Positions 538 to 29,095 of a stretch of 32,576 nucleotides of DNA are shown piece after piece (within the stretch, counting starts at the first letter, position 1; every line of letters begins with the position of its first letter). This DNA is from Bdellovibrionales bacterium RIFOXYC1_FULL_37_79 (GTDB taxonomy: Bacteria > Bdellovibrionota > Bacteriovoracia > Bacteriovoracales > Bacteriovoracaceae), in assembly GCA_001770015.1 (NCBI GenBank), contig MEQB01000046.1, positions 1 through 32,576 of the forward strand, given 5' to 3'. The notes under the pieces were generated by a model. The model was not told where the DNA came from. It was given only the letters and a program-made list of their open reading frames with translations, and made no database searches. The position numbers were made by a program, and so were the translations under genes.

Positions 538-1335
538 TCAAATTAGGTCTAAGAGTTTTTCAATTATCTCTTTATGATGGGTGATATTGATAAAATGAGT
601 TGCGTTTGGAACAGTTACTATATCAAACACCGAACTTAGTTTTAGCCTTTCAAAAGTTTCTTTGGAAATAGAGCTGAAATTTTCAGCGACAAGAATTATA
701 TTCTTTTTATCCTTGACCTTATTCATTTTATAAAAAATCGGCCATTGGTTATTTATTTGTAATGATGACATAACCTCATTTAATTTGTGAACGCCTGTTC
801 GCCAGACTGCTGGACCGTCAATGGTTGGATAATAGACCTGACTTGCAAGTAGGGATCGGGCATTTCTGTTTGGTACTAATTCTTGGATTTGTTTTTTTAA
901 ATTTTTCCAATTTTGATTCATATTGAGTCTGGGAACTACATCATATGTGAGTTTATAAAACTCTGTATCCTCAATTGGGGCAGGGGAAATGTCACCAAAG
1001 ACACCTCCTCGATATAATTGGGGAAATTTAGCCATAAAATCAAAAATAATTTTCCCGCCATAGCTGGAACCAAAAAAATAAGCACCTTGATTGCTATAAT
1101 GCTCTTCCAGAATTTGAGCAATCATATCCGAACCGTGATCATAATCAATCTTTTTTAAGTCACGAATTGCAATACTTTCCTTTTTTAATTCGTGATGAAA
1201 ATCAACAAAAATAACATGAAAATTAAATTGCAAAACTTCTAAAAATTTTAACTCCTCCGCTCCACCCATTAAACCGTGAACAGCTATTAATATTGGAAGA
1301 TTTTTGTTTCCTACTGATTCATAGTATAGTGACAT
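538..1335 (-). CDS. Alpha/beta hydrolase
   Basis: The 265-residue protein has an HGLMGG oxyanion loop (residues 20-25), the nucleophile elbow GSSYGG with Ser91, and a late His in ATHFIN near residue 247. This is a complete-looking alpha/beta hydrolase triad scaffold; the acid residue is not certain. There is no signal peptide, so it is cytoplasmic. Its ATG overlaps the stop of the upstream glutaminase gene by 17 bp, which implies translational coupling. As the last gene of the thioesterase-dehydratase-glutaminase unit it probably acts on an acyl thioester, ester or amide made by the cluster. Family membership is clear; substrate is unknown. Confidence 0.8.
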   Translation of the reverse strand: MSLYYESVGNKNLPILIAVHGLMGGAEELKFLEVLQFNFHVIFVDFHHELKKESIAIRDLKKIDYDHGSDMIAQILEEHYSNQGAYFFGSSYGGKIIFDFMAKFPQLYRGGVFGDISPAPIEDTEFYKLTYDVVPRLNMNQNWKNLKKQIQELVPNRNARSLLASQVYYPTIDGPAVWRTGVHKLNEVMSSLQINNQWPIFYKMNKVKDKKNIILVAENFSSISKETFERLKLSSVFDIVTVPNATHFINITHHKEIIEKLLDLI

Positions 1336-1930
1336 GAGGCTCTCCTTCGATAATCTGGTCGGGGAAGCTATTTTGAAGTTCTCGACTGGGTGTTGGTATT
1401 ATTTTTATTTCTTGTAATAAGTATGAAGTGGAGGCAAGTAAGAGTTTTAATATTTGAGTTTCATTGTTGGCGATATTGCTATTTGTGGACGTATAAAGAG
1501 GCTTTACTCCAAACGGATCCCTACCAAAATATACCTTATTCATCTTTTTATTATAAAAAATATAGGCATATTCACCGCAAACTTTTTTTAGGGATTGCAC
1601 TCCTTTTTTTGCAAAAAGATTAAGCAAAACTTCACTGTCAGATTGAGTATAGAATTTAACTCCTTCCTTTTCTAATTCGGTTTTAATTTTTTTATAGTCG
1701 TAAATTTCACCATTCACAATACCAATAATATTTTTATCATAGGAGATAAGAGGTTGGCCGCCAGTAGTTAGGTCAATAATACTTAGGCGTGTATGCACAA
1801 GAACGGCGTGATTGCTTGAATAATAGCCATAACCATCCGGTCCACGATGAATGAGAGAGGCGACAACCTGTTTAAGTTTTGTAGGATTAAATACAATGGT
1901 CTGGCCAAATTCTCCCCAAATTCCACACAT
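1319..1930 (-). CDS. Stand-alone class II glutamine amidotransferase domain
   Basis: The protein starts MCGIWGEFG, placing the N-terminal nucleophile at Cys2 as in asparagine synthetase B. Further hallmarks are HRGPDG, HTRLSIIDL, NGEIYD, SDSEVLL and FGRDPFGVKPLY. AsnB-type enzymes are about 550-600 residues, with a PP-loop ATP pyrophosphatase synthase domain after the glutaminase. This protein stops at 203, so the synthase half is absent. The last 45 or so residues do not resemble the AsnB linker I expect. It should release ammonia from glutamine for a partner. The acyl-AMP ligase of the same cluster is one possible acceptor system. Loss of an original synthase domain by deletion is the main alternative. 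It starts 9 bp after the dehydratase gene. Confidence 0.78.
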   Translation of the reverse strand: MCGIWGEFGQTIVFNPTKLKQVVASLIHRGPDGYGYYSSNHAVLVHTRLSIIDLTTGGQPLISYDKNIIGIVNGEIYDYKKIKTELEKEGVKFYTQSDSEVLLNLFAKKGVQSLKKVCGEYAYIFYNKKMNKVYFGRDPFGVKPLYTSTNSNIANNETQILKLLLASTSYLLQEIKIIPTPSRELQNSFPDQIIEGEPHVTIL

Positions 1931-1939
1931 TTTATTTTC

Positions 1940-2383
1940 CTAAATCCCTTGTTTTTCTTTCCACTCTTTTACAATTTCATCTTGCACAAGTTTTGCGGTA
2001 ATTTTTGGATCTAAAAAGGAATATAGAATTTCAGCACTTGATTTTTTTTCCCCGTCAACAGTGATTATTCCCGAACATCTTGCATATTGGGACGTCAATT
2101 GGGTAATTTCCGCTTTAATTTCACATTTATCACCCGGGAATATACTATGATAAAACTTTGCGTTCTTTACGCTGGCTAAAGCAGGAGCTAGGTTTTCGTT
2201 GTATATTTTAATACATTTTCCTCCAGCTTGAGCAATCATTTCAATTTGCAAAACTCCAGGAACAATCGGGTAATTTATAAAATGGTGCTGGAATATTTCT
2301 TCCGAACGAGTGAAGCATTTTGTGGCAGTAATTGTTTTTCCTGGATCACATTCGGTTATTCGATCAAGTAGGTACCATAGCAT
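1940..2383 (-). CDS. FabZ-like 3-hydroxyacyl-ACP dehydratase
   Basis: This is a hotdog-fold protein of 147 residues. It carries the FabZ signature HHFINYPIVPGVLQIE with the catalytic His near residue 34 and Glu48, followed by AQAGG. Size and motif match the FabZ family (about 140-150 residues). It would dehydrate 3-hydroxyacyl-ACP to enoyl-ACP in the elongation cycle. A good ribosome site (AAGGAG, 2388-2393 on the complement) precedes the ATG. The gene overlaps the thioesterase gene upstream by 20 bp. It serves the ACP, ketosynthase and reductases encoded on the divergent arm. Confidence 0.85.
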   Translation of the reverse strand: MLWYLLDRITECDPGKTITATKCFTRSEEIFQHHFINYPIVPGVLQIEMIAQAGGKCIKIYNENLAPALASVKNAKFYHSIFPGDKCEIKAEITQLTSQYARCSGIITVDGEKKSSAEILYSFLDPKITAKLVQDEIVKEWKEKQGI

Positions 2384-2795
2384 TTTTTTTCTCCTTGATT
2401 AAAATTTCAAGCCAGTCTTTTGGGAACTCGATCATTTTTCTTGCCTTGAGATCAAGCATGCCATGTCGAAGATTAGCAATGCAAACCTTTTGCTCGGCTT
2501 GATTAAAAATTGTTTGTTTCATATGAATAATTAAATTTTTTTCAATTCCTGTGATGCCAGTATTGACGTAGATCAACTCATTTAGGATAAGTTCCTTTCT
2601 AAATTTTATGGTACAATCTATAAGAACTGGCGCAAAACCTAACGAGTAAATATCTGGTTTATCGTAACAAGTACCCTTAAAGCAGCTCCAGCGAGCCTCT
2701 TCAAATATATTTAGATACCGGGCGTTGTTTACATGATTAGAGCCATCAATATCGTTTGGTTTTATTGTTGTGTGAAAGTTAAATTCTCTTTGCAT
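2364..2795 (-). CDS. Acyl thioesterase, 4-hydroxybenzoyl-CoA thioesterase/YbgC type
   Basis: The 143-residue hotdog protein has the motif DIDGSNHVNNARYLN at about residues 15-29. This is the Asp-containing active-site loop followed by HVNN, as in FadM/YbgC-type thioesterases. It would hydrolyse acyl-CoA or acyl-ACP and release the finished chain. It is the first gene of the leftward arm and is transcribed from the divergent intergenic region 2796-2909. Its 3' end overlaps the dehydratase start. Chain-length preference cannot be read from sequence. Confidence 0.82.
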   Translation of the reverse strand: MQREFNFHTTIKPNDIDGSNHVNNARYLNIFEEARWSCFKGTCYDKPDIYSLGFAPVLIDCTIKFRKELILNELIYVNTGITGIEKNLIIHMKQTIFNQAEQKVCIANLRHGMLDLKARKMIEFPKDWLEILIKEKKNAMVPT

Positions 2796-2909
2796 ATAAA
2801 AATTATTTCATACTTGGGGTCTTTATCCAAAAAAAAAATAAAAGGTAGAATATGCCAGATTGTTGTCTAATAAAATATTTTCGATTATTCTAAAAAATAT
2901 GAGGTTTTA
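2796..2909. promoter_or_regulatory. Divergent promoter region of the fatty-acid cluster
   Basis: These 114 bp separate the two divergent arms and must hold both start sites. The sequence is very AT-rich and includes an A-tract at 2829-2838. A GAGG ribosome site sits at 2901-2904 for the rightward arm. A weak rightward promoter can be proposed (TTGTTG 2860-2865, 17 bp, GATTAT 2883-2888). No clear operator palindrome is visible. Confidence 0.4.
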
Positions 2910-3647
2910 ATGGCCAAAATACTATGGAAAAATTTTGTATACCCGCAAGGTGATAATTTAGAAATAAAATCCAAAAAGATCAACTGTTTTTTTCCTAAGG
3001 GAAATCTCGAAAAAGTCAGAAGCTTTAATTATAACAACAAGCAATTGCTTGGGCAATTTGGTCATGTTTCCAGATCCAGTTCAAGGGCGTGTAGTTTATT
3101 GCATTTTGCATGTTCAACGTTACCCTCTGAGTGTTTAAATGTGATAAATCAAGATACATTCCGTGTTGGTATTTACTGTGCTGTAGAGAATGGTACAGTA
3201 GATTATGATATGGTGGAACGTATTCTTGCGCAGGACAGACAAGATTTTCATCGAAACTATAAGCGGGAAAGAAATCCCAAGATGTATTTGCAACAATTAC
3301 CCAATTTAATAGCAACGCAGCTAGGGATTTCTTATGGAGTAAATGGACCAACATATGTTTTTACTCATCCTGAACTTGGTTCTCTTCAGGCATTAGAACA
3401 AGCCGAATTTGATTTAGATCATTCATATACTAGTTTAGCACTACTTGTTTCTGCATTTAGTAATGAAGATGGATTAAATTTATTTAAAAATTCTAAACTT
3501 AGTGATTTGCCGTTGTCGGAATGCGGGGTAGCAATTTTATTGAGTGCTGGTGTTGAAAAATTAGATAAAATGGAGCCATCAGCGTACAATTATAATTATG
3601 GAATAACTAATCAATTAATATATAAATTTAATTTACATGAGGAGTAA
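2910..3647 (+). CDS. Beta-ketoacyl synthase-like protein lacking the catalytic Cys
   Basis: The 245-residue protein resembles only the N-terminal half of a ketosynthase. It has VGIYCAVENGT, then GISYGVNGPTYVFTHPELGS at the place where active enzymes have the nucleophile loop GPxxTxxTACSSG. It then has a CGVAILLS strand. No Cys occupies the nucleophile position, and the C-terminal half with the two catalytic His is absent. Length and layout fit the Pfam PF13723-type ketosynthase-like proteins found in aryl-polyene-like clusters. It probably acts as a chain-length factor or partner for the ketosynthase at 3907. The gene is 2 bp before the ACP gene. The family call is moderate; non-catalytic status rests on the visible motif loss. 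Confidence 0.7.
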   Translation: MAKILWKNFVYPQGDNLEIKSKKINCFFPKGNLEKVRSFNYNNKQLLGQFGHVSRSSSRACSLLHFACSTLPSECLNVINQDTFRVGIYCAVENGTVDYDMVERILAQDRQDFHRNYKRERNPKMYLQQLPNLIATQLGISYGVNGPTYVFTHPELGSLQALEQAEFDLDHSYTSLALLVSAFSNEDGLNLFKNSKLSDLPLSECGVAILLSAGVEKLDKMEPSAYNYNYGITNQLIYKFNLHEE

Positions 3648-3649
3648 AG

Positions 3650-3904
3650 ATGAATGAACAAATACTATTCGCTAAAATCCAAGAAGCTATTGCTGATATT
3701 TTAGATCTTGATGCGGATGAAATAAAAATGGAAAGTAAATTAATTAACGACTTAGGAGCGGAAAGTATAGATATGTTAGATATTGCTTCGGAACTGGAAA
3801 AAATAGTCAATCAGGAAGTTAATCTTGCACAACTTCGAGCTGCCTTACCAAATAATCGGCCTATGATCGTAGGTGATCTTGTAAATTTTTTAAAAAGCTT
3901 ATAA
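3650..3904 (+). CDS. Acyl carrier protein
   Basis: The 84-residue acidic protein has the phosphopantetheine site DLGAESIDMLD with Ser39 as attachment point; classical ACPs have DSLD. The surrounding helices (ADILDLDADEI) fit the ACP fold. It starts 2 bp after the ketosynthase-like gene and ends 2 bp before the ketosynthase gene, so it is the dedicated carrier of this cluster. No phosphopantetheinyl transferase or malonyl transacylase lies nearby, so those must come from the housekeeping set. Confidence 0.92.
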   Translation: MNEQILFAKIQEAIADILDLDADEIKMESKLINDLGAESIDMLDIASELEKIVNQEVNLAQLRAALPNNRPMIVGDLVNFLKSL

Positions 3905-3906
3905 GT

Positions 3907-5169
3907 ATGCCAAAACAACAAAATAAAGTATTCGTCACAGCCTGTGGAGTTGTTTCTTCCATAGGCTGCAGTGTTGAGTCTTTTACTCAAAATATGTTTG
4001 CAGGAATGTCAGGTATAAAAAACATCAGAGGTGTGGGTGAATTTCCCAAAGATTTTCCAGTTCCATATGCTGGTGTTATTGAGGATAAACTCGATCAGTT
4101 TAAATATATTCCTAGGCATATAGTAGAAAGCATAACCCAAACTGGTGAGTTAGCAAGATCATGGCGGTGTACTTTGCTTGCCTTAGAGCAGATATTTGAA
4201 AAAATAAAAGTAATCGAATCCATTGATGCTTTTGTATATGGAACTCCTGATGGTACTGGATATGAGGTTGTTGAAGATGCTTATCGCAAGAAAAATACAG
4301 GAGATTTTGATTTAAAACTTTTAAGCGGAAATGGATGTCATGATTTTTTAATTGAAAGTATTCGATCATACTATGGTGTTGAACTCGCACCAGATAAAAT
4401 CTATAGTATGAATGCAGCTTGTGCAACAGGGAATCAAGTGATTGGATTAAGCTTGCAAAGAATACGAGCGGGCATATGGGATCGTGTATTGGTTGGTGGT
4501 GTTGACACTAGATGTACATTGGCAAATATGATGAACTTTCACATGCTAATGGCACTGTCTACCGCAGATGTTGAGCCAAGTACTGCCAGTCGACCTTTTG
4601 ATAAGACAAGATGTGGCTTTGTAAGAGGAGAGGCAGCTGGCATTCTACTTTTAGAGTCAAAAGAGTCTCAAGCTAAAACAGGTAATCCAATTCTTGCGGA
4701 GATTGTCGGTTATGGGAATACATCGGATGCTTATCGTCTAACTGACCCAAGAGAAGATGGGCTTTGTTTAAAGAAAGCAATGGAAAATGCGATTATAGAT
4801 GCAGGGATTTATAAGGAACAAATAGATTATATAAATGCACATGGAACATCGACATTATTGAATGATAAAATAGAAACCATGGCTATAAAAGAATTGTTTG
4901 GAGATTATGCTTACAAACTAGCAGTAAGTTCTTTAAAATCGCAAATTGGACACCCTACGGTAGCGGCAGGTATTTTAGAGAGTATTGCATGTGTACAAAT
5001 GTTGCAACATCAAAAGCTGGCACCAACTATTAATCTTCATAATCCTGATCCAGATTGCGATTTGAATTATGTTCCGCTGGTAACTCAGGACCGAAAAGTA
5101 AATTATATATTAAGCAATAACATTGGTTTTGGTGGTCAAAACATTTGTATTGTATTAAAAAAAGCATAA
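3907..5169 (+). CDS. 3-oxoacyl-ACP synthase, FabF/KAS II type
   Basis: The 420-residue protein has the full Cys-His-His triad: Cys172 in NAACATGNQ, His312 in NAHGTSTLLND, and His349 in KSQIGHPTVAAG. The closing loop NNIGFGGQN near the C-terminus is also present. It condenses malonyl-ACP with acyl-ACP by decarboxylative Claisen reaction. Length matches FabF (about 410-420). It is the only intact ketosynthase of the cluster and probably works with the nucleophile-less protein encoded at 2910. Some loops (SWRCTLLALEQ, TPDGTGYEV) depart from standard FabF and suggest a specialised rather than housekeeping enzyme. Confidence 0.9.
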   Translation: MPKQQNKVFVTACGVVSSIGCSVESFTQNMFAGMSGIKNIRGVGEFPKDFPVPYAGVIEDKLDQFKYIPRHIVESITQTGELARSWRCTLLALEQIFEKIKVIESIDAFVYGTPDGTGYEVVEDAYRKKNTGDFDLKLLSGNGCHDFLIESIRSYYGVELAPDKIYSMNAACATGNQVIGLSLQRIRAGIWDRVLVGGVDTRCTLANMMNFHMLMALSTADVEPSTASRPFDKTRCGFVRGEAAGILLLESKESQAKTGNPILAEIVGYGNTSDAYRLTDPREDGLCLKKAMENAIIDAGIYKEQIDYINAHGTSTLLNDKIETMAIKELFGDYAYKLAVSSLKSQIGHPTVAAGILESIACVQMLQHQKLAPTINLHNPDPDCDLNYVPLVTQDRKVNYILSNNIGFGGQNICIVLKKA

Positions 5170-5179
5170 GGATGATACG

Positions 5180-5941
5180 TTGAAGAAATTAGCTTTAATC
5201 ACAGGTGGAACTTCAGGATTGGGCCTTGCTTGTTCAACAAAGCTTGCTCAAAAATATGATTTAGCCTTGGCTTATTGTAACAATGATGAAAAAGCGGAGA
5301 TTGCAAAGTCCGAGATCGAAAACAAATATCCCGAATGCCGCATTGAAATCTTTAAAAAAGAATTATGTAGTTATAAAACAGCTAAAGAACTTTATGATAG
5401 TGTGGTCGATAAATTTTTGTACTCCCCCTCTATCTTGATCAATAGTGCTGGACGTCTGAGGGATGGTTTGTTTTTAAATATGGATTTTTCAACTCAAGAG
5501 GAAATGATTAACGAGCATCTGATTACTGCAATGGCCTTATCCTATTTGTGCCTTAAAAATATGTACAAGGATAAATTCGGGAGAATTATTAATTTTTCCT
5601 CGGTAAGTGCCAATTATTTCAAAAAAGGCCAAGTCGGTTACGCCTGTGTTAAATCAGGGATTGAAGGGTTTACAAAGTGTTTGGCACTAGAGGTTGCTCA
5701 TCGTGGAGTAACAATTAATGCCGTGGCACCAGGTTTGATTGAAACTCCTATGACTCAAAATATGGTGAATGAATTAAGAGAAAATAAACTACTTCGAAAA
5801 AAAATACCAGTGGGCAGATCCGGCAAGCCCGAAGAGGTTGGGGAATTAGTACAATATTTATGTTCAGAAAATGCAAGCTATATAACTGGTAGTGTGATTA
5901 CAATAGATGGTGGTCGATCATTAGGAGATAATTCTATATGA
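5180..5941 (+). CDS. 3-oxoacyl-ACP reductase, FabG-like SDR
   Basis: This classical short-chain dehydrogenase has 253 residues: TGGTSGLG cofactor loop (8-15), NSAG (88-91), catalytic Ser near 140-141, and YxxxK as Tyr154-Lys158. The C-terminus GSVITIDGGRS is typical of FabG. It would reduce 3-oxoacyl-ACP with NADPH. The start is TTG at 5180, supported by AAGGA at 5168-5172; no ATG is better placed. The stop overlaps the next ATG by 4 bp (ATGA at 5938-5941), so the two reductases are translationally coupled. Confidence 0.88.
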   Translation: MKKLALITGGTSGLGLACSTKLAQKYDLALAYCNNDEKAEIAKSEIENKYPECRIEIFKKELCSYKTAKELYDSVVDKFLYSPSILINSAGRLRDGLFLNMDFSTQEEMINEHLITAMALSYLCLKNMYKDKFGRIINFSSVSANYFKKGQVGYACVKSGIEGFTKCLALEVAHRGVTINAVAPGLIETPMTQNMVNELRENKLLRKKIPVGRSGKPEEVGELVQYLCSENASYITGSVITIDGGRSLGDNSI

Positions 5942-6678
5942 AAAATACTTATGTAATCACTGGTGGTACTAGAGGAATAGGCGGAGGGATAAGCTTGAAA
6001 CTGCTGTCTCAGGGCCACAAGGTCTTTGCTCTTTATGCCAGAAATACACAAGAGGCGAATAAGTTAATCGAATTGGCGAAAAATCTACGAGGTGAGCTGG
6101 TTTGCCTTAGAGGTGATTTAACCATATCAGAGAATATGGCACAGATAGGCCAGCAAATTCTGGATTCTGCAGATAGTATTAATGGACTTATTCATTGTGC
6201 TGCAAGCGGTGTTCACAGAAGTGTTGATCAACTTAAAACCAAGCATCTTAGGTGGACCTTTGAAGTAAATTTTTTTTCATTTCATGAGCTTTTTCTCATA
6301 TTATTGCCCAAGTTAACCAAGGGCTCAAAAATAATAGGATTGACATCGGCGGGTAGTCAACGCTATTTACAACAATATGCCGCTGTTGCCAGTAGTAAAG
6401 GTGCTTTAGATGCACTTTTACGTCATTATGCAGTGGAATTGGCTCCGAGAGAAATTAGTGTAAATTTAGTGTGCCCTGGAATGGTTGAAACAGAAGCCAT
6501 AAACAGTTTTCCCAATCGAGAAGAAAGGATTAATGCCGCAAAAGCACTTACTCCCTCTGGAAGATTAACTACGGTAGAGGATGTGGCAAACCTCATCCTT
6601 TATATTTTGCTGGTAGAACATAATCAATTTACAGGTCAAACCTTCTATCTGGATGGTGGAAAAAGCCTTTTAGCTTAA
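5938..6678 (+). CDS. fabL: Enoyl-ACP reductase III, FabL-like SDR
   Basis: The 246-residue SDR has TGGTRGIGGG at the cofactor site. Instead of the usual YxxxK it carries Y-x6-K (Tyr147...Lys154 in QYAAVASSKGAL), the spacing that defines Bacillus subtilis FabL. The stretch around it (RYLQQY..., VELAPREISVN, FPNREERI, TPSGRL) also parallels FabL as I remember it. It would reduce enoyl-ACP with NAD(P)H and so completes the elongation cycle. The 3' end overlaps the convergent acyl-AMP ligase gene by 9 bp. A second ketoreductase role is the alternative, but the Y-x6-K spacing argues for enoyl reduction. Confidence 0.78.
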   Translation: MKNTYVITGGTRGIGGGISLKLLSQGHKVFALYARNTQEANKLIELAKNLRGELVCLRGDLTISENMAQIGQQILDSADSINGLIHCAASGVHRSVDQLKTKHLRWTFEVNFFSFHELFLILLPKLTKGSKIIGLTSAGSQRYLQQYAAVASSKGALDALLRHYAVELAPREISVNLVCPGMVETEAINSFPNREERINAAKALTPSGRLTTVEDVANLILYILLVEHNQFTGQTFYLDGGKSLLA

Positions 6679-8184
6679 AATTTCATACAACTCTTTTCGC
6701 AAAATTTTTCCAGCATCCGATCTGGGAAAAACTTTTTTTTCAACAATTTCTATTGGTACTTTGAATTTTCTTTTTAAATCTTGTTTAAGCTTTTTCTTTA
6801 GCCACTCAATGGATAATAATTCTGTATCGCCGGATTCCAAAAAAAGATATGCTTTATTTCTACCTCCTGTTTTAACAGGCAGGCAAACGGCATCGCTATA
6901 ATATTTTTTAACGTCTTCGCTATTCATGGCCATTTCTTCGATGTGAGTCCCCGAAATTCTTTCTCCGTTAATTTTTATAATTCCATCTGAACGACCAAGT
7001 ATAAAGAGTCTACCTTCAGATGACATGAATCCCATATCCCCAGATTTCAAGAAACCTTTCGAATCAATTACGTTTGTTGCTTCGTTGTAATACCCTTTCA
7101 TAACGGTCTTGCTTTTAATGAAAATATATCCTTCTTGTCCGGGTTTACACAGCCTGTTTCTCCCATCTCTGATTTGAATTTCCACATCTTCAAGCAGTCT
7201 GTAACCAGTATCCTCGGGGGTGTTTGAAGATGTATTGTGAGTACACATGATAGCAACACGAGTGGCTTCCGTAAGACCATATCCCTTGTAAATCTTAGCA
7301 TTCGGAAAAAGTTTCTGAGCAAATTTAATGTCAGAATTTGTAATCATACCACCTGATAAAGCGAGAATTTTTACGTGTAGAGCATCTGGAAGATTGCGTA
7401 TATTTTTTTCCTGTAGCAAGTAAGGAAGCAAATCAGATATCAATGCCAGATTATCTCCATTACTTTTTAGAATATTCCTATAGACATTATTCAGGTCAGA
7501 TAAAGTGGGAGTAATATAGGAATTTCCACCAGACAGGATAGTCGGAAAGAAATGTGTATTTATACACATTGTGTGGGAGAGTGGAAGTATTACCGTGGAG
7601 GTGGATTGTTGGTTGAGAGCAAATTCTTTTTGTAAGGCGTTTGCCAGAAAAACAGTCCCAAGAGCGGGAATCATCACCCCATGTGCCGTTCCCGTTGACC
7701 CGGATGTATATAGTATCATGCCTACATCAGATGGTAATTTATGAAATGTTTTTTGTTTTTTTACAATTTTTGTTTCTAATTTTATTTTATTAGATGCAAC
7801 TCTTTTTAATACTCCAAAATTTTTTTCATTCATGCTGATAAGTGAAAAACGCATATCATCCAAAGATGTAATGAGTAAACTCATTTCGTTTTGATCGATC
7901 ATTGTAAAAGAGTCTTTTTCTTTGTAAACAATAGGTATGCGATCACTGATTATAATTGCAATAATTGTGAGTACCTGAAGAATTCCATGCGGAAGAGCTA
8001 TACCAATTACGTCACCAGAATCTGTGGATGAGTTTAAGCTTTGAATAATGGGGGTAATTAATTCGGCAATTTGCCCCCCTGTTAAATTACAAGCATCATC
8101 ACTTAATAAAATGTTTGCTTGATAGTCTAAAAGAGCTGATTTGAGTTTCGTGGAAAGAATATGAGGTATGAATTGATTATTCAC
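6670..8184 (-). CDS. Acyl-AMP ligase (ANL superfamily adenylating enzyme)
   Basis: The 504-residue protein contains the ordered ANL motifs: P-loop YTSGSTGTAHG (about 159-169), YGLTEATR, SGDMG, GRSDGIIKINGERIS (hinge), and PRSDAGKILRKEL with the C-terminal catalytic Lys near 496. Both the large N-domain and the mobile C-domain are complete. It activates a carboxylate as acyl-adenylate and transfers it to CoA or an ACP. In this cluster the likely acceptor is the ACP at 3650, or an amine if the glutaminase supplies ammonia. Its ATG overlaps the end of the C92-like gene by 8 bp, so the two are coupled. Fatty versus aryl substrate cannot be decided. Confidence 0.88.
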   Translation of the reverse strand: MNNQFIPHILSTKLKSALLDYQANILLSDDACNLTGGQIAELITPIIQSLNSSTDSGDVIGIALPHGILQVLTIIAIIISDRIPIVYKEKDSFTMIDQNEMSLLITSLDDMRFSLISMNEKNFGVLKRVASNKIKLETKIVKKQKTFHKLPSDVGMILYTSGSTGTAHGVMIPALGTVFLANALQKEFALNQQSTSTVILPLSHTMCINTHFFPTILSGGNSYITPTLSDLNNVYRNILKSNGDNLALISDLLPYLLQEKNIRNLPDALHVKILALSGGMITNSDIKFAQKLFPNAKIYKGYGLTEATRVAIMCTHNTSSNTPEDTGYRLLEDVEIQIRDGRNRLCKPGQEGYIFIKSKTVMKGYYNEATNVIDSKGFLKSGDMGFMSSEGRLFILGRSDGIIKINGERISGTHIEEMAMNSEDVKKYYSDAVCLPVKTGGRNKAYLFLESGDTELLSIEWLKKKLKQDLKRKFKVPIEIVEKKVFPRSDAGKILRKELYEILS

Positions 8185-9760
8185 GAACTTCCTCTGATTG
8201 TGGGTGAAAATATTGCAGAAGAGATCTCATGGCTTTTCTCATGGAAAGAACATTCTTTTCATCTATTAAAAAATTTTCAACGTCAAATTTTGGACTAAGA
8301 TTATTTAATACGAGCTTGAAATGGGTGTAGCAAGGATCGAATGTTGGGATATTTTTCTTAACGGCAACTCTACCTTTGGGAATGGTGGTAGTAATTTTTC
8401 TGGCTACCTTTTTTGAGCCCGTGCAATATAATATTGTTTTCTCTACTTCTTCGTCAAAAAAAAGGCTGAAGGCGATAAGGTTAGGCTCACCTGCCGGAAA
8501 CGATGATACCTTTATCCCCGTTGAAAAGCGTAGAAGTTTTCCTGCAAAAGACTCGCTTGTCCTTATTTTTTCGATTGCTTCGGATTTTGCCTTAATCTTG
8601 TGTAATACTTTATTTGTCTTGATAGCTTGCTGTTGTAGAACCTTGGTCAGCACGTCACTTTCCAACTTGATTAAAAGATTTGTTTTAATATTCAACATAT
8701 CGGTGTACCCGACCAGGCTAAAACGTTTATCGTATGCAAAATCAGCCGGGGCAAGATATTCGCGGCTAATCGTACCAAATTGGACTATTAGGTCATAGGC
8801 GTATGATTCCGTGAGAGTTAATTCCAATACAGAAGAAATGCCGCCAGCGTGTAATGCTTCTGTAACCAATTCAGTGCAGGTAAATTCATTTTTATCATTA
8901 TTATCAACATTAGTGGTGAAATCGAATTTATATTTTTGTTGTTTAGATATTAAATTTTCAAAATAGTTACGAATTTGGTTTTGCCAATTAGGTTGTAAGA
9001 AACGTTGTTCTTCTGCTGTTAGACGATAGATTTCAAGATAGGTACTGATCTTATCATGGAGATAATGGGAAAGAGGGGTTGCCCTTATTCCACCTGCATG
9101 CATATCAAATACGGTCGGGATAGAACGACCTTTATCATGCATCATAACGAAAATGGCTGAGTGATTACCCGTTTGTTTAGTGTCACGAGTCGTGGATAGC
9201 AGTTCGTAGCCGTATGTGTTGGTATCTCCAACGATGATATCACCCGTTTTAAATTTAATTCCATGAAAATAAGCCTCTTCGCCTTGAACAGGATAATTGC
9301 TGGCTAACTTATAATCCTTCCAGTTATTAAAAAGCGACCAACGTGTGTCTTCTAATGTTTTTACATCCAAAAATTTCTCTGGTGCATGCTTGGAAGATCT
9401 AATCTTAATTTTTTTAGCCTGATTATCTTTCAAGATAAAAGGAAAGGAATCAAAGAGGTCTTGTAATTTTTTGTTGTCGTGGGGTAATTTATCAATGTTT
9501 TGAATAAGTTTTTGTGAGAACCAATAATTAAAAACTTCCATTTTGTATTTAAGCAGCACCAAATCATATTGATTAAAGCGCCCCCTGGGAAGTTGAATGT
9601 ATGAGTCTTGAATATTTTTATAGTCGGCCAAGGATTGTTCAATTTGTGTTTCGTTAAAATCAAATTGTTCAATATCATTCATAATATCTTGAATGGTACA
9701 AAATCCAGCCATGGGTACTAACATAACACAAAGATATATTATAAAAGATTTGATAGTCAT
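8177..9760 (-). CDS. Exported permuted papain-fold (C92/YiiX-like) protein
   Basis: Residues 1-21 form a signal peptide (hydrophobic stretch ending VPMAGFC). The core has TGDIIVGDT (172-180), the His motif GNHSAIFV with His200, and the Cys motif EFTCTELVTEA with Cys295. This order (His before Cys) matches the circularly permuted NlpC/P60-like families such as YiiX/Pfam Peptidase_C92. Relatives of that fold include peptidases, amidases and LRAT-type acyltransferases. About 150 residues before and 230 after the core are not assignable. A ribosome site (AAAAGGACT on the complement) precedes the ATG. Coupling to the acyl-AMP ligase suggests it acts on the acyl product in the periplasm, which is an inference. 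Confidence 0.75.
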   Translation of the reverse strand: MTIKSFIIYLCVMLVPMAGFCTIQDIMNDIEQFDFNETQIEQSLADYKNIQDSYIQLPRGRFNQYDLVLLKYKMEVFNYWFSQKLIQNIDKLPHDNKKLQDLFDSFPFILKDNQAKKIKIRSSKHAPEKFLDVKTLEDTRWSLFNNWKDYKLASNYPVQGEEAYFHGIKFKTGDIIVGDTNTYGYELLSTTRDTKQTGNHSAIFVMMHDKGRSIPTVFDMHAGGIRATPLSHYLHDKISTYLEIYRLTAEEQRFLQPNWQNQIRNYFENLISKQQKYKFDFTTNVDNNDKNEFTCTELVTEALHAGGISSVLELTLTESYAYDLIVQFGTISREYLAPADFAYDKRFSLVGYTDMLNIKTNLLIKLESDVLTKVLQQQAIKTNKVLHKIKAKSEAIEKIRTSESFAGKLLRFSTGIKVSSFPAGEPNLIAFSLFFDEEVEKTILYCTGSKKVARKITTTIPKGRVAVKKNIPTFDPCYTHFKLVLNNLSPKFDVENFLIDEKNVLSMRKAMRSLLQYFHPQSEEVRE

Positions 9761-11892: not shown

Positions 11893-11978
11893 TCATCCAC
11901 TGGAAGGAAACTTCATTACCCCTATCCAGTTTACATAATTAAGCACCTAACTCATCGAAATGATTTCTTTTAAAAAAC

Positions 11979-12019
11979 ATTATAACTATTCTGTACCACT
12001 AGTACAGAATAGTTATAAT
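11979..12019. terminator. 41-bp palindrome, likely bidirectional terminator
   Basis: The arms are perfect: 18 bp (11979-11996 and 12002-12019) around a 5-base loop. On the complement strand a T6 run (11972-11977) follows within 2 bases. On the plus strand a T7 run follows after about 10 bases. It lies between the 3' end of the secreted-protein gene and the leftward pepN pseudogene, as expected for a shared terminator. Confidence 0.75.
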
Positions 12020-12045
12020 TAAAAAGTATTTTTTTAATTTCTTTA

Positions 12046-12597
12046 TGAAAATGAATATAATTTCTGCCAAACGTTCGGTGGATGGCCCGGATCATGTTGG
12101 GCACGGTTTTATTATAATCCTTCGAAGCAATGATTTTATGGAGTCTTTCCAAAGTATCAGGATGCAAAGAGGAGGCCTGCGCTCCCAACCATTTCATCAA
12201 GACTAAACTATCCTTGTGCCAACGATTATAAAATTTAGCTATCGCATCTGCTGCGATAAGGCATATGAAAAGGTACCTCCTCTCCCTCAAAGAGTTGTCT
12301 GATAAACACCTGGTACTCTCCACTCTCTTTTTGATAACTGGATTTTATTTCCAGTCGAGGTGTTCCTGCACGGTGATACCAGCTCTGTTCAAATTGTGAA
12401 AAATCATAATTATTATTGGCAGCACTCATCGCATGAATAAAATCGTTGGTAGTCACCGCCTGGCCATCAAAAAGTTCGAAATACTTATCCATACTTCTTC
12501 TAAAGCCCTCTTTGCCTAAAAGCGTATGAATCATTCTGATGACTTCCGCTCCTTTATCGTACACGGTAGGGGTATAAAAATTATTGATTTCAATATA
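12046..12597 (-). pseudogene. Aminopeptidase N (PepN) pseudogene, mosaic fragment
   Basis: Two blocks match the intact PepN encoded at 14813-17398 on the same strand. The first (12597 down to about 12263) runs from YIEINNFYTPTVYDKG to HMPY. The second (about 12235 down to 12046) runs from AIAKFYNRW to NYIHFH. Between them only a scrap like AADA remains, so several hundred codons are deleted and the frame shifts at the joint. Residues are about 75-80 percent alike by eye, so this is an old duplicate or a copy from a relative, not a recent one. It lacks the GAMEN and HEXXH catalytic motifs and cannot be active. No start codon context survives. Confidence 0.85.
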
Positions 12598-12603
12598 GTA
12601 TAT

Positions 12604-12762
12604 ACTCATTACCATCCCCCCCAGGAAGGACTCCAAGCACCTCAGGATTACGCATCTGCTTGTAATTTGAATGGTGAAACTTACTTGGATAGAAATGTAT
12701 GCAAATGCAAAAGTAATCATACTCAGGCAAACCCCTGGTTTCCCTACTGCACTGATGAGTAA
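12604..12762 (+). pseudogene. Cys-rich C-terminal module, copy 3
   Basis: The plus-strand frame encodes PPQEGLQAPQDYASACNLN, then NVCKCK and ANPWFPYCTDE, ending at TAA 12760-12762. It preserves the full module, including QDYxSACN and the four Cys. Its DNA is clearly diverged from copies 1 and 2, so amino-acid conservation exceeds base conservation. The left edge abuts the broken edge of the pepN pseudogene (12597). An ATG at 12526 in the same frame lies inside the pepN remnant and gives an artificial start. It is probably the surviving 3' end of a secreted-protein gene. The rest of 11893-12837 holds the palindrome, the pepN remnant and featureless AT-rich DNA. Confidence 0.6.
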
Positions 12763-14812: not shown

Positions 14813-17398
14813 CTACCCCAAGATCTTGCTGATGATTTCATAGGTGTTTTTGGAGATATTAGCAATTTTGGAAACCCTGTGAATCTCTCGACCCATAATC
14901 ACCCGATTTTCGGCAGGCACTCGTTTAAAATCACTAAAGAGTTTCGAGAGCGCTGAAGACATGGACGGATTAAAAGTATCAATGTCGATGATCGCATCCG
15001 CAATAAATTTATAACCAAGTCCATTTGGATGATGAAAATGAATATAGTTTCTGCCAAATGTCCTATGAATGGCCCGGATCATGTTGGGTACGGTCTTATC
15101 ATAATCTTTTGAAGTGATAATTTTATTGAGCCTGGAAAGCGTATCTTTATTGGGAGAAGAAGCCAAGGCCCCCAACCACTTCATCAAGACCAGCTGATTG
15201 GACCCCCATCTCTGGTAAAAACGCTCTATGGCCTCTTGCCTTTTAGGAGCATTGGAATGCACCAGTAAATGGAAACACATATATTCTTCGGTCATATTTT
15301 GAGCTTTAATAAAATCATTAAAGCACATACTAAAAATATCTTGATCCCCAAGACTCATGAGAAAGGATAGAATTTCACTGCGCAAGTCTCTCTTGCCTAC
15401 CTGACTTGGAATAAACTGATACTCCTGCGTATCTTTTAGCTGTGCATACATACCAAGCAAAGTCTCCCTATGCTTGGCAGCCAAGGTCTTTTTAAGTTTA
15501 TCCAATCCCTCAAACACCTCTTGATAGGGAACAATATCCAACCTCTGGTGAATATAACTCTCCGAGGGAAGTGAGATCAGTAAAGCCTTGGTAGCTGGAT
15601 CAACTCTCCTGTCTTTTAAAACTTCTCCCCAGGCATCAAGGTAATCATCTGCCAACACCGAATTTTTATTTTGCAAATATTCCATGACCGCATCTGCCGC
15701 AAGCTTGCGCCCTATCTCGTAGCGGGAAAAGGCATTGCTATCTAGTTTATACAGATTATAGGCATCACTCCCTGAATAATCATAGTGACTGATAACCGGG
15801 GCAGAAAAATCACGGTTTAGGGACAGATAAGGTTTCCTCAAAATATCTCTAAACACAAATTCACTGACTTCAGCTTTTATTTCCAGACAGTTATTTTTGA
15901 CAGCATAATCCTCACCTGATTCATTCACCAGTCCGATCTTATAGGGCATATGATAAGGAGTCTTGCCATCATTTAAGAGTTGTTTGATGGTAATTTTATA
16001 TTCATGTTTCTGCTCATCATAATCAGATTTGATTTCCAACTTGGGAGTACCTGCCTGATGATACCAGGTTTTTTCAAACTGTGAAAAATCATAGTTGTGG
16101 TTTGCCACACTCATGGCATGAATAAAATCGCTGGTGGTGACTGCCTGGCCGTCAAACAGTTCAAAATATTTATCCATTCCCTTTCTGAATCCATCCTTAG
16201 AAAGCATAGTATGAACCATGCGGATCACTTCCGCCCCCTTGTCGTAAACCGTGGGTGTATAAAAATTATTAATCTCAATATAAGAGGAAGGCTTGATCGG
16301 GTGTCTGGTCGGTCCCTGATCTTCGGGAAATTGCAATTCCCGCAAAGCCTCGACATCTTGAATCCGCTGCACTCCCCGGGCATTCATATCCGAAGAAAAT
16401 TCCTGGTCTCTAAAAACCGTAAGTCCTTCTTTAAGGGTTAATTGGAACCAATCCCTGCAAGTAATCCGGTTTCCTGTGTAGTTATGAAAATATTCATGCC
16501 CCACCACTCCTTCAATTCGTTGAAACTGAAGATCGGTGGCGGTCTTGGCATCGGCCAGCACCAGTGCCGAATTAAAAATATTCAGTCCTTTATTTTCCAT
16601 GGCACCCATATTAAAGGAGTCAACCGCTACAATCATGAAAATATCAAGGTCGTATTCCAGCCCAAAAGTCTCCTCATCCCATCGCATGGCCTTTTTCAAG
16701 GATTCCAGTGCAAAGAAACAACGATCTTCGTTTCCTTTATCGCAGTAAATTCTAAGATCTATTAACCTATTTGATCTGGTTTGATACTCTCCCTTGATCA
16801 TTCCGAGATCTCCGGCCACCAGCGCATACAGATAGGAAGGCTTATAAAAAGGATCAAACCAGACCGCATAATGTAAACCATTATCCAAATCACCACTGTC
16901 AATGAGATTACCGTTACTTAAAAGCACTGGATAAAGTTTTTTATCAGCGATAATTTTGGTGGTGAATTTCGCCATGACATCCGGCCTGTCAATATAATAA
17001 GTGATCCTTCTAAAACCCTCCGGTTCATTTTGCGTACAAAACAGGTCACCGGACTTATATAAACCTTCCAAGGTTTTATTTTCGATGGGATTGATAGTGT
17101 TTTCAATTTCCACCACACATTCGTCTTTTCCACTTAAAATCTTTAAATACTCATCAGTGACTTCATATTCATCATGAGATAGCACTCTTCCATCCATCGT
17201 GACCTTGACCAGGGTTAAATTATTAGCATCAAGTATGATAGGGGCATTCGCACTCTTGGTCTTTTTCTTTATAGTAAGCTTGGAAGAGACCAAGGTCTTG
17301 GAATCGTTTAACTCAAAGGTCAGATACACGTTATCAACGGTATAATCTGGTGCTTTATAATCACTTAATTTTTTCACTAATGCGTCTTGTATATTCAA
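14813..17398 (-). CDS. pepN: Aminopeptidase N (M1 family zinc peptidase)
   Basis: The 861-residue protein is close to the 870 of Escherichia coli PepN. It has the substrate-binding GAMEN motif (MGAMENKGLN, about 264-268), the zinc site HEYFHNYTGNR at 301-305, and the third ligand Glu in LKEGLTVFRDQEF about 19 residues later. The HPIKPSSYIEINNFYT stretch and the C-terminal helical domain are also typical. It removes N-terminal residues from peptides in the cytoplasm, useful in a protein-consuming organism. AAGGAGTT lies just before the ATG. It follows the DUF2797 gene by 30 bp, so both form one leftward operon. A degraded partial duplicate lies at 12046-12597. Confidence 0.96.
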   Translation of the reverse strand: MNIQDALVKKLSDYKAPDYTVDNVYLTFELNDSKTLVSSKLTIKKKTKSANAPIILDANNLTLVKVTMDGRVLSHDEYEVTDEYLKILSGKDECVVEIENTINPIENKTLEGLYKSGDLFCTQNEPEGFRRITYYIDRPDVMAKFTTKIIADKKLYPVLLSNGNLIDSGDLDNGLHYAVWFDPFYKPSYLYALVAGDLGMIKGEYQTRSNRLIDLRIYCDKGNEDRCFFALESLKKAMRWDEETFGLEYDLDIFMIVAVDSFNMGAMENKGLNIFNSALVLADAKTATDLQFQRIEGVVGHEYFHNYTGNRITCRDWFQLTLKEGLTVFRDQEFSSDMNARGVQRIQDVEALRELQFPEDQGPTRHPIKPSSYIEINNFYTPTVYDKGAEVIRMVHTMLSKDGFRKGMDKYFELFDGQAVTTSDFIHAMSVANHNYDFSQFEKTWYHQAGTPKLEIKSDYDEQKHEYKITIKQLLNDGKTPYHMPYKIGLVNESGEDYAVKNNCLEIKAEVSEFVFRDILRKPYLSLNRDFSAPVISHYDYSGSDAYNLYKLDSNAFSRYEIGRKLAADAVMEYLQNKNSVLADDYLDAWGEVLKDRRVDPATKALLISLPSESYIHQRLDIVPYQEVFEGLDKLKKTLAAKHRETLLGMYAQLKDTQEYQFIPSQVGKRDLRSEILSFLMSLGDQDIFSMCFNDFIKAQNMTEEYMCFHLLVHSNAPKRQEAIERFYQRWGSNQLVLMKWLGALASSPNKDTLSRLNKIITSKDYDKTVPNMIRAIHRTFGRNYIHFHHPNGLGYKFIADAIIDIDTFNPSMSSALSKLFSDFKRVPAENRVIMGREIHRVSKIANISKNTYEIISKILG

Positions 17399-19296: not shown

Positions 19297-20496
19297 ATGT
19301 TAGAATCATTTGTTAATAACAAGTTAATTCAGAAAAAAAACATGTTAATTCAAAGTAATCTTTATCCCTTTTTCAGAGCGATCGGAGATACTGTTGGTTC
19401 CAAGGTTTATATAAAAAACCAAAAACAGATAATGATTGGATCCAATAATTATCTGGGACTGACTCATCATCCATACGTCAAAGAAAAGGCCATCAAGGCC
19501 ATCGAACAATTTGGCACTGGATGTACGGGCTCTCGCTTTTTAAATGGCAATCTGGAAATGCATGAAGAACTGGAAGAAAAACTGGCCAAGTTCATAGGCC
19601 ACAAAGCGGCTTTGATTTTTTCCACTGGCATGCAAGCCAACCTTGGCGCTATCTCATGTATTGCAGGTCCCCGTGATTGCATTATCTCGGATTTGGAAAA
19701 TCACGCTTCCATCATAGATGGCACCAGACTGGCATACGGCACCGTCTTTAAATACAAACACAGCAATATGAATTGCCTCGAAGAAGTTCTGCAAAACGTC
19801 CAAGAAAAATACCAACGCAAAATAATTATTACGGATGGTGTTTTTTCCATGACCGGAACCATAGCCAACTTAACTAAAATAGTTGAACTGGCAAAAAAAT
19901 ATGGGGCCTTGGTCTATGTGGATGATGCCCACGGACTCGGAGTGCTGGGCCATCAGGGTAAAGGTACGATTAATCACTTTGCAGTGACCTCCGATGTACA
20001 CATCAATATGGGCACCTTCTCCAAGTCCTTTGCTTCGATCGGCGGATTTATTTCCGGCTCCAAAGAAGTCGTAGATTTTATCAAACATTCCGCCAGATCA
20101 TTTATTTTTTCGGCATCCATGCCGCCGGCAGCAGTTGCCACCGTTGCTGCTTGTATCGATGTAGTCACCACAGACCCTAGCGTACTTTCCAATTTATGGA
20201 GTAACGTCAATTTTATGAGACATGGCTATAAGGAGATTGGCCTTTATACTTATAACTCCGAAACCCCCATCATTCCTATTTATGTGGGAGATGATCTGAA
20301 AGCTTTGCAAGTCTCCAGCTACCTGACAGGGAAAGGGATTTTTTCCACACCAGTAATAGCACCCGCGGTAAAAGAAGGAGAGGCCCTCATTCGCACCAGC
20401 TATATGGCAACTCACGAAAAAGAAGATCTTGCCAAAGTTTTGGAAGTTTTTAGCGATGCCAAAAGACTATTTGAACTTCCCTCCATTTTTAATTAA
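19297..20496 (+). CDS. spt: Serine palmitoyltransferase-like alpha-oxoamine synthase
   Basis: This is a PLP enzyme of 399 residues, fold type I. It has the PLP-stacking His in DLENHASIIDG, the Asp/His of VDDAHGLGVLG, and the Schiff-base Lys243 in GTFSKSFASIGGFI. The wording of that last motif is closer to bacterial serine palmitoyltransferases than to BioF or Kbl. It would condense serine with an acyl thioester to 3-ketosphinganine, the first step to sphingolipids. An NAD(P)-dependent epimerase-like reductase gene follows after 6 bp, as expected for the CerR step. BioF is the main alternative, but no biotin genes are near. Sphingolipids are established in Bacteriovorax stolpii. Confidence 0.82.
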   Translation: MLESFVNNKLIQKKNMLIQSNLYPFFRAIGDTVGSKVYIKNQKQIMIGSNNYLGLTHHPYVKEKAIKAIEQFGTGCTGSRFLNGNLEMHEELEEKLAKFIGHKAALIFSTGMQANLGAISCIAGPRDCIISDLENHASIIDGTRLAYGTVFKYKHSNMNCLEEVLQNVQEKYQRKIIITDGVFSMTGTIANLTKIVELAKKYGALVYVDDAHGLGVLGHQGKGTINHFAVTSDVHINMGTFSKSFASIGGFISGSKEVVDFIKHSARSFIFSASMPPAAVATVAACIDVVTTDPSVLSNLWSNVNFMRHGYKEIGLYTYNSETPIIPIYVGDDLKALQVSSYLTGKGIFSTPVIAPAVKEGEALIRTSYMATHEKEDLAKVLEVFSDAKRLFELPSIFN

Positions 20497-20502
20497 AAAA
20501 TA

Positions 20503-21501
20503 ATGAAAATTTTAATCACAGGTGCCACCGGTTTTGTGGGATCTCACCTGGTTGATCACTTCGTATCCGACGGGCACGAGGTTTACGCGCTTTTTAGAAG
20601 TGAAACCAAATTACATGAGTTCTCAATCAAAGGAATACCTATTAAAGGAGATTTTTCCAACTTTGCGTGGCTCAATCAACTGCCCACCGATTTGGAGGCC
20701 GTCATTCACACCGCCGGACTCGTCCATGCCAGCGACACCGATGATTTTTACAAAATAAATGTGAACGCTACGGTGGATCTTATCAATCAACTTAAAGATA
20801 AATATTCCCATCTTATTTTTGGATTAATTTCATCTCAAGCGGCTTCTGGCCCCAGTCTTAAGGTCACAGGTAAAGACGAACAGGCCAAAGACCTGCCCGT
20901 TAGCCATTACGGAAAATCCAAACTTCTCGCAGAAAATAAATTAACCAAGCTCTCACCCCATACTTGGAAAACTTTCATCATCAGGCCCCCCATGGTTATT
21001 GGCCCGCGGGATTTTGCCATGCTTTCCGTTTTTAAAATTGTCAAAACCGGACTGGTTCCTGTGGTCGGCAACCCCGATCAAAAAATCTACAGTTTTGTTT
21101 CCATTTTTGATCTGGTTAAAGGCATCACCGCTGCCACCTATCAAATCCAAAAAAGCAACCGTCAAATTTTTTATATTGCCCATCCCCAACCGGTTTCTTA
21201 TCGAACGATCATTTCTGCCATCAGAAGAGTCATGACGATCCAAAACCAACCATGGTTTTTGTTTGTGAGGATGCCATCTTGGATACTGCTGGTCATCGCT
21301 TATCTGTTACAACTTATCAAATATTTTTTTCCTCCCTTTGATCCTCTACTTACTCCTGATAAAATCAAAGAAATTATTCCAAACCAATGGGTCGTTACCA
21401 GTAATAAATCCATGGAATGGTTACAAATAAATTATAACTGTGATCTGGAGACCGCCATTAGACTGACTTATGAGGATTATAAGGGAAGAAGTTGGTTATA
21501 A
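20503..21501 (+). CDS. cerR: Extended SDR, probable 3-ketosphinganine reductase (CerR-like)
   Basis: The 332-residue extended SDR begins MKILITGATGFVGSHL (Rossmann GxxGxxG) and has YGKSK as the catalytic Tyr/Lys. A hydrophobic stretch near residues 258-275 (SWILLVIAYLLQLIKYFF) suggests membrane association, useful for a lipid substrate. In Caulobacter the 3-ketosphinganine reductase CerR is an epimerase-like SDR of this kind. Its position 6 bp behind the serine palmitoyltransferase gene supports that role. A sugar epimerase or dehydratase is possible by family alone. The 3' end overlaps the convergent tapT gene by 25 bp. Confidence 0.72.
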   Translation: MKILITGATGFVGSHLVDHFVSDGHEVYALFRSETKLHEFSIKGIPIKGDFSNFAWLNQLPTDLEAVIHTAGLVHASDTDDFYKINVNATVDLINQLKDKYSHLIFGLISSQAASGPSLKVTGKDEQAKDLPVSHYGKSKLLAENKLTKLSPHTWKTFIIRPPMVIGPRDFAMLSVFKIVKTGLVPVVGNPDQKIYSFVSIFDLVKGITAATYQIQKSNRQIFYIAHPQPVSYRTIISAIRRVMTIQNQPWFLFVRMPSWILLVIAYLLQLIKYFFPPFDPLLTPDKIKEIIPNQWVVTSNKSMEWLQINYNCDLETAIRLTYEDYKGRSWL

Positions 21502-29082: not shown

Positions 29083-29095
29083 GCGGGAGGATACC

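Follow-up and report, generated by a model that had tools for sequence, protein, structure and literature searches.

The stretch analysed here (the window) is a whole contig of 32,576 bases (MEQB01000046.1; G000:C46) from Bdellovibrionales bacterium RIFOXYC1_FULL_37_79, which is related to predators of the Bdellovibrio type. Positions 538–9760 carry a cluster with the gene families of a type II fatty acid synthase (FAS) or polyketide synthase (PKS). The open reading frames (ORFs) listed in an original prediction, made from the sequence, were confirmed in position, and the coordinates also bear out its three tightly packed units: thioesterase-FabZ-amidotransferase-hydrolase on the minus strand, 2910–3647 to the enoyl reductase (ER) on the plus strand, and C92-ligase on the minus strand. 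The families named there were recovered as well: a FabZ/FabA-like protein, a 4HBT protein, a PP-binding acyl carrier protein (ACP), a ketosynthase (KS), two short-chain dehydrogenases/reductases (SDRs), an AMP-binding ligase and a C92 protein. The protein called a hydrolase gave only weak matches, to alpha/beta hydrolases of the MenH type. The list had left out one gene, that for a half-size, KS-like subunit resembling a chain length factor (CLF), which lies on the plus strand upstream of the ACP gene. The features of the cluster are as follows.

538–1335, minus: alpha/beta hydrolase, probable acyl-thioester hydrolase or transferase (weak MenH/esterase matches; GxSxGG Ser91 and His247)
1319–1930, minus: truncated AsnB-like amidotransferase (GATase_6/7; glutaminase domain and last 58 amino acids)
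1940–2383, minus: FabZ-type 3-hydroxyacyl-ACP dehydratase (DH; FabA-like Pfam domain; FabZ NCBIfam 90 bits, cutoff 113)
2364–2795, minus: 4HBT hot-dog thioesterase (PF13279)
2910–3647, plus: half-size, Cys-less KS-like subunit, CLF-like partner (weak PF00109 and PRK06519; fold matches)
3650–3904, plus: dedicated ACP (PP-binding; phosphopantetheine Ser within LGAESID)
3907–5169, plus: KS (Cys-His-His triad; fabF model 330 bits, cutoff 494)
5180–5941, plus: FabG-like ketoreductase (KR), Y-x3-K (TIGR01830 197 bits, cutoff 298)
5938–6678, plus: FabL-like enoyl-ACP reductase, Y-x6-K (FabL model 202 bits, cutoff 328)
6670–8184, minus: acyl-adenylate-forming ligase (AMP-binding, PF00501 123 bits)
8177–9760, minus: C92 (YiiX/YaeF-like, permuted papain) protein with a signal-peptide-like N-terminus (PF05708 33 bits)

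These genes, in the same arrangement, were found in two genomes of the same family at 56–85% and 53–83% identity. The outer ends of the cluster, formed by the alpha/beta hydrolase and C92 genes, agree with those of these syntenic clusters. Because genes, arrangement and outer boundaries are all shared, the neighbourhood is not due to chance. This is the gene-neighbourhood comparison that the original prediction had suggested, and the core of the cluster was found to extend beyond the family.

The product of 2910–3647 is 245 amino acids long and gave weak ketoacyl-synthase matches (PF00109, PRK06519). An alignment read by eye showed no Cys at the position of the KS nucleophile. An AlphaFold model (pLDDT 75.8) was compared to solved structures with Foldseek and matched ketosynthase folds. 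The top match was 6kxf_B, the CLF chain from the ishigamide system, and ApeC (6qsp_B), itself a half-size CLF, matched along its whole length. CLFs of aryl-polyene clusters have been described as half-size proteins with a single thiolase domain (PMC8358021). The combination of a KS with a half-size CLF that characterizes those clusters is present here as judged from fold and size; the sequences are not closely similar. The CLF-like gene adjoins ACP and KS genes in all cassettes described below and was not found on the plasmids searched. A CLF role for this product is likely from the model. The original prediction had described a mini FAS/PKS set; with a CLF-like subunit present, the system would therefore be placed among type II PKSs of the KS/CLF kind and no longer be a "mini FAS".

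The remaining core enzymes carry the expected motifs. Residues Cys172, His312 and His349 of the KS fall in invariant alignment columns, which confirms the full triad that had been read from the sequence. The KS scores below the cutoff of the fabF model (330 against 494 bits), and in trees the cassette KSs form a group apart from FabF, ApeR and ApeO; some forks within it are weak, and the outgroups include several long branches. In the second SDR, Y147-x6-K154 is invariant across seven sequences. FabL is the nearest relative both by model (next-best model 117 bits) and by a profile search of solved structures, in which the enoyl-ACP reductase 3oic/3oid was best (217 bits; next 145). Because its 202 bits lie under the equivalog cutoff of 328, the protein is classed on sequence as FabL-like, not as FabL proper. 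The enoyl reductase had been taken to argue against a conjugated polyene product, and its FabL type supports that argument. The locus has one ACP and one dehydratase, and a FabZ-like gene is present in nearly all cassettes read.

The genome was searched family by family for other lipid genes. Contig C1 carries FabF (589.9 bits, cutoff 493.75), FabH (370–382 bits, above cutoff) and FabG together, with a FabD-like ORF beside FabH; a FabI-family protein is found on C2, and FabZ adjoins LpxA on C64 (the FabD-like ORF and LpxA were recognized by eye). A full housekeeping FAS is thus encoded elsewhere. The possibility that the cluster is the only FAS II set of the organism, which the original prediction had named as its own refutation, was rejected, and its view of a specialized acyl set beside the housekeeping FAS holds. 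PF00109 was matched in this genome only by FabF, the cluster KS and a megasynthase. The latter (L010:7888–14244, on G000:C19) is a 2118-amino-acid, double-ketosynthase protein resembling polyunsaturated fatty acid synthases and PKSs, and residues 1005–1294 within it form a C45 acyltransferase domain. A type III PKS gene was also seen (L098; G000:C36:150500–164500), together with genes for a UbiE-type methyltransferase, a YceI-like protein and an MMPL protein. In the window itself, 10 kb from the cluster, a serine-palmitoyltransferase-like gene (483 bits, under the curated cutoff) is followed by an extended SDR (19297–21501, plus strand); together they are a possible start of a sphingolipid pathway.

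A CLF profile gave any match in 17 of 369 genomes searched in the phylum (E 0.001). Those records that bear names are Bdellovibrionales and Bdellovibrionota metagenome-assembled genomes (MAGs), plus two Chlorobiaceae MAGs. The neighbourhoods were read, and the core was present in G029, G075, G056, G208, G368 and G181; in G117 the neighbourhood is interrupted by a contig end, and G355 has no KR and ER nearby. All uncut Bdellovibrionota clusters contain the AMP ligase and the alpha/beta hydrolase, in which the GxSxGG Ser91 and His247 are conserved; the best solved match to a profile of the hydrolase is the putative esterase 7c4d. Other finishing genes vary. C92 is found in the window, L008 and L036, a patatin-like protein adjoins the ligase in L009, and L040 has a similar-looking ORF without a Pfam match. 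The L037 ligase has a C-terminal match to a phosphopantetheinyl-transferase family, under the curated cutoff. A 4HBT thioesterase was found in only one other cluster among the relatives, L036. The window ligase is 21% identical to E. coli ApeH. His200 and Cys295 of the C92 protein are conserved in L012, and no solved relative of this protein was found by sequence. The original prediction had proposed modification in the periplasm; this is a tentative step, suggested by the C92 domain and by an N-terminus that resembles a signal peptide.

In the case of the amidotransferase, the protein described originally as a glutaminase does contain a class II glutamine amidotransferase domain but is the remnant of a full-length AsnB-like enzyme. 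Its homologue in L008 has 657 amino acids with glutaminase and asparagine-synthase domains. Aligned to it by blastp in two pieces, 1319–1930 retains residues 1–152 and the final 58. At the DNA level, a single in-frame internal deletion of ~1.39 kb has removed the synthetase domain, which was not found elsewhere in the genome (contig C39 encodes an AsnB-like protein, but with only 31% identity). The remnant is 71–73% identical in all three pairs, and its dN is no faster than that of intact homologues; dN alone was used as synonymous sites are saturated and dN/dS is unusable. Because the remnant has not diverged faster, the deletion appears to be recent, an assembly error or tolerated. AsnB is intact in clusters L008, L036, L039 and L040, and the genome of L016 has a homologue (43%) on another contig. 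The suggestion of a possibly amidated product would fit those relatives whose AsnB is intact, but the amidating domain has been lost here.

The core is also carried by relatives of green sulfur bacteria. A class search around one Chlorobiaceae genome found the cassette KS in 10 of 98 genomes (E <1e-195). A second KS group at ~1e-81 to 1e-88 is clearly apart from it and is taken to be FabF. In the Chlorobia loci read, FabZ-CLF-ACP-KS-KR-ER is kept collinear, whereas FabZ is located in the divergent unit in the close group of the window. The ORFs listed automatically for L091 include neither FabZ nor ACP, which overlapping frames may explain. An AcpS-type gene comes first in the Chlorobia clusters, which also have genes for a LolD-like ATPase, a LolCE-like permease and a LolA-like protein, and most clusters also have a ketoacyl-ACP synthase III (KAS III)/type III PKS-like enzyme. 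In L014, L090–L095 and L100 the core is accompanied by this enzyme (sometimes two) as well as the LolD/LolCE-like ABC and LolA-like genes; these clusters are possibly an exported lipid pathway of their own. The company of the core in Chlorobia points to an envelope-directed exported lipid. The Chlorobia cassette sequences form one group in the tree. Transfer of the cassette between the phyla is likely on these sequences, although the tree does not give its direction.

These results suggest that the locus is probably an accessory, fully reducing type II PKS/FAS in which a KS and a half-size CLF-like subunit make a specialized acyl chain of controlled length. In the proposed order of steps, the acyl-AMP ligase would most likely charge the ACP with a carboxylic acid as starter, a step carried out by ApeH in aryl-polyene synthesis and by AmcH in cispentacin synthesis. 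AmcH, an adenylating enzyme, is the precedent for such starter loading (PMC10698177). The KS/CLF pair would then extend the ACP-bound chain repeatedly with malonyl units from the housekeeping supply, KR, DH and ER would reduce it, and the CLF-like subunit would set its length. Release or transfer of the chain may fall to the alpha/beta hydrolase, together with the 4HBT thioesterase in clusters that have one, and in the relatives the AsnB-type enzyme could turn the chain into an amide. Beyond the inner membrane, the product would be a substrate of the C92 enzyme. From reduction of the chain by KR, DH and ER, the product is therefore expected to be a largely saturated specialized acyl chain and not a polyene.

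Several observations weigh against this interpretation. The Foldseek TM-scores for the CLF-like subunit are modest (0.49–0.61), and many FabF chains match about equally well. The CLF assignment draws on a medium-confidence model and weak Pfam matches. A profile of three CLF-like sequences did not match E. coli ApeC and a PDB sequence search with the subunit gave no match; fold comparison was used because these sequence-only comparisons yielded nothing. The ligase could instead reactivate a finished acid, in place of loading a starter. The FabL-like SDR may not reduce in every cycle, and AsnB is broken in this genome.

Two other explanations appear unlikely and a third more so. The locus could be a partly reducing, polyene-type system like those for aryl polyenes or ishigamide, whose FabL-like protein would work a single time, at a late stage, or as something other than an enoyl reductase. 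The half-size CLF, the adenylating enzyme, the thioesterase and the DH all have counterparts in aryl-polyene clusters, the latter three in that of E. coli. However, a FabL-like ER with an invariant Y-x6-K is present in every complete core read. With one ACP, one DH and no ApeR-type second KS, MMPL or LolA, and a ligase of such low identity to ApeH, the locus fits a polyene system poorly, and we regard this explanation as improbable.

An equally doubtful explanation is an accessory FAS feeding a lipid made elsewhere, for instance by the sphingolipid-like enzymes at 19297–21501 or by the C36 type III PKS; the ligase and hydrolase would then do no more than recycle acyl groups. A full reductive cycle would suit such a supply, as would the serine-palmitoyltransferase-like gene 10 kb away, the genome's own type III PKS with MMPL and the type III PKS-like gene that adjoins the Chlorobia cores. 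Against this, a type III PKS was found in none of seven cassette-bearing Bdellovibrionota relatives but in 16 of the 22 family members without the cassette (hypergeometric ~0.001, ignoring relatedness and genome incompleteness), and no serine-palmitoyltransferase-like gene was apparent among the ORFs flanking either the L008 or the L036 cluster. Feeding of a type III PKS in Bdellovibrionota is thus not supported.

It is very unlikely that the half-size subunit is an AmcG-like cyclization factor acting in a single condensation and cyclization, as in a cispentacin/coronafacic-acid-like system with the FabZ-like protein as AmcE. In its favour, AmcG is likewise a KS partner that has no recognizable motifs (PMC10698177), the locus has an ACP, a DH-like protein, a KS with its partner and an adenylating enzyme, and the AmcE and AmcF models are weakly matched by the FabZ-like protein and the KS, respectively. 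Against it, the FabZ-like protein scores 90 bits on FabZ and 34 on AmcE, the AmcF match of the KS (161 bits) is exceeded by housekeeping FabF (217 bits) and hence generic, no NCBIfam AmcG match was obtained for the window proteins, and the amc set has no dedicated KR and ER.

The preferred explanation, a fully reducing KS/CLF-type synthase, has consequences beyond this genome. The type II systems of the KS/CLF kind described so far yield, to our knowledge, either aromatic compounds or conjugated polyenes. If the explanation is correct, a KS/half-CLF pair with its own ER would show that this machinery can also make saturated chains of controlled length, and the boundary between fatty acid and polyketide synthases would be blurred. 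The Lol-type export genes beside the core in Chlorobia would suggest a new class of outer-membrane or periplasmic lipid that could be sought by mass spectrometry in core-bearing strains. As a tentative extension, in which our confidence falls somewhat short of even, FabZ-CLF-ACP-KS-KR-ER may be a portable, fully reducing cassette that represents a new KS/half-CLF subfamily, passed between Bdellovibrionota and Chlorobia and joined to varied finishing modules (ligase-hydrolase-amidotransferase or KAS III/type III PKS-like enzyme plus Lol-type exporter) to make new exported lipids.

Other features of the window were observed outside the cluster. A broken, partial second copy of aminopeptidase N lies at 11970–12720 (minus), with an intact copy at 14813–17398 (minus). 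Two adjoining succinyl-CoA-synthetase-like genes (27799–30916, plus), the second encoding 606 amino acids with an extra C-terminal part, are suggestive of ATP-citrate lyase, which takes part in the reverse tricarboxylic acid cycle. Two short stretches (261–350 and ~12526–12762) share a similar cysteine-rich ending (NPWFP-x-C), and the left contig end may be broken at a repeat.

Compared to known systems, the locus shares with aryl-polyene clusters (ApeO-ApeC; E. coli CFT073, Xenorhabdus, Acinetobacter) a KS with a half-size, single-thiolase-domain CLF, an ACP, a KR, a hot-dog DH, a thioesterase and an adenylating enzyme; the KS is 34–37% identical to ApeO and ApeR over 259 amino acids. The ApeR second KS, second ACP, second DH, MMPL, LolA, glycosyltransferase and acyltransferase have no counterpart at the locus, whereas the E. 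coli CFT073 reference cluster contains both MMPL and LolA. The FabL-like ER, alpha/beta hydrolase, AsnB and C92 are added. A classical aryl-polyene cluster was rejected on the missing second KS, second ACP, MMPL and LolA and the added ER. The original prediction had named an aryl-polyene cluster with ammonia lyase and exporter elsewhere as a second refutation; the single aromatic ammonia-lyase of the genome is HutH-like and stands alone on another contig. The cispentacin AmcB-H set also has a KS with a motif-poor partner, an ACP, a DH-like protein and an adenylating enzyme, but it lacks KR and ER, the window lacks an aminotransferase, and the AmcE and AmcF matches are weak and generic. Housekeeping type II FAS has the same ACP, KS, KR, DH and ER steps, with an ER like B. 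subtilis FabL; the genome has separate Fab genes elsewhere, and here a CLF-like partner is present and the KS lies outside the FabF clade.

No paper describing this gene set was found in the literature searched, where subscription papers are mostly missing, and nothing usable emerged on FabL together with type II PKS, on type II PKS from Bdellovibrionota, on Chlorobium type III PKS or on polyketide amides and AsnB. Neither Bdellovibrio nor Chlorobi is mentioned in the main text of a catalogue of type II KS-CLF pairs from 2023. Within these searches the original statement that the cluster matches no named pathway stands, but its core is shared with Chlorobia and is not unique to this lineage. 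The locus has the genes of a highly reducing type II PKS of the ishigamide type, namely a KS, a Cys-less CLF-like partner with which it is predicted to pair, a free-standing ACP, a KR and a DH, and the ishigamide CLF is the best fold match. It differs in the size of the CLF (~360 amino acids in ishigamide, 245 here), and the ishigamide-type members we know of make polyenes without a dedicated ER. We therefore rate the system as a relative of the KS/CLF type II synthases with new features, and not as a separate category.

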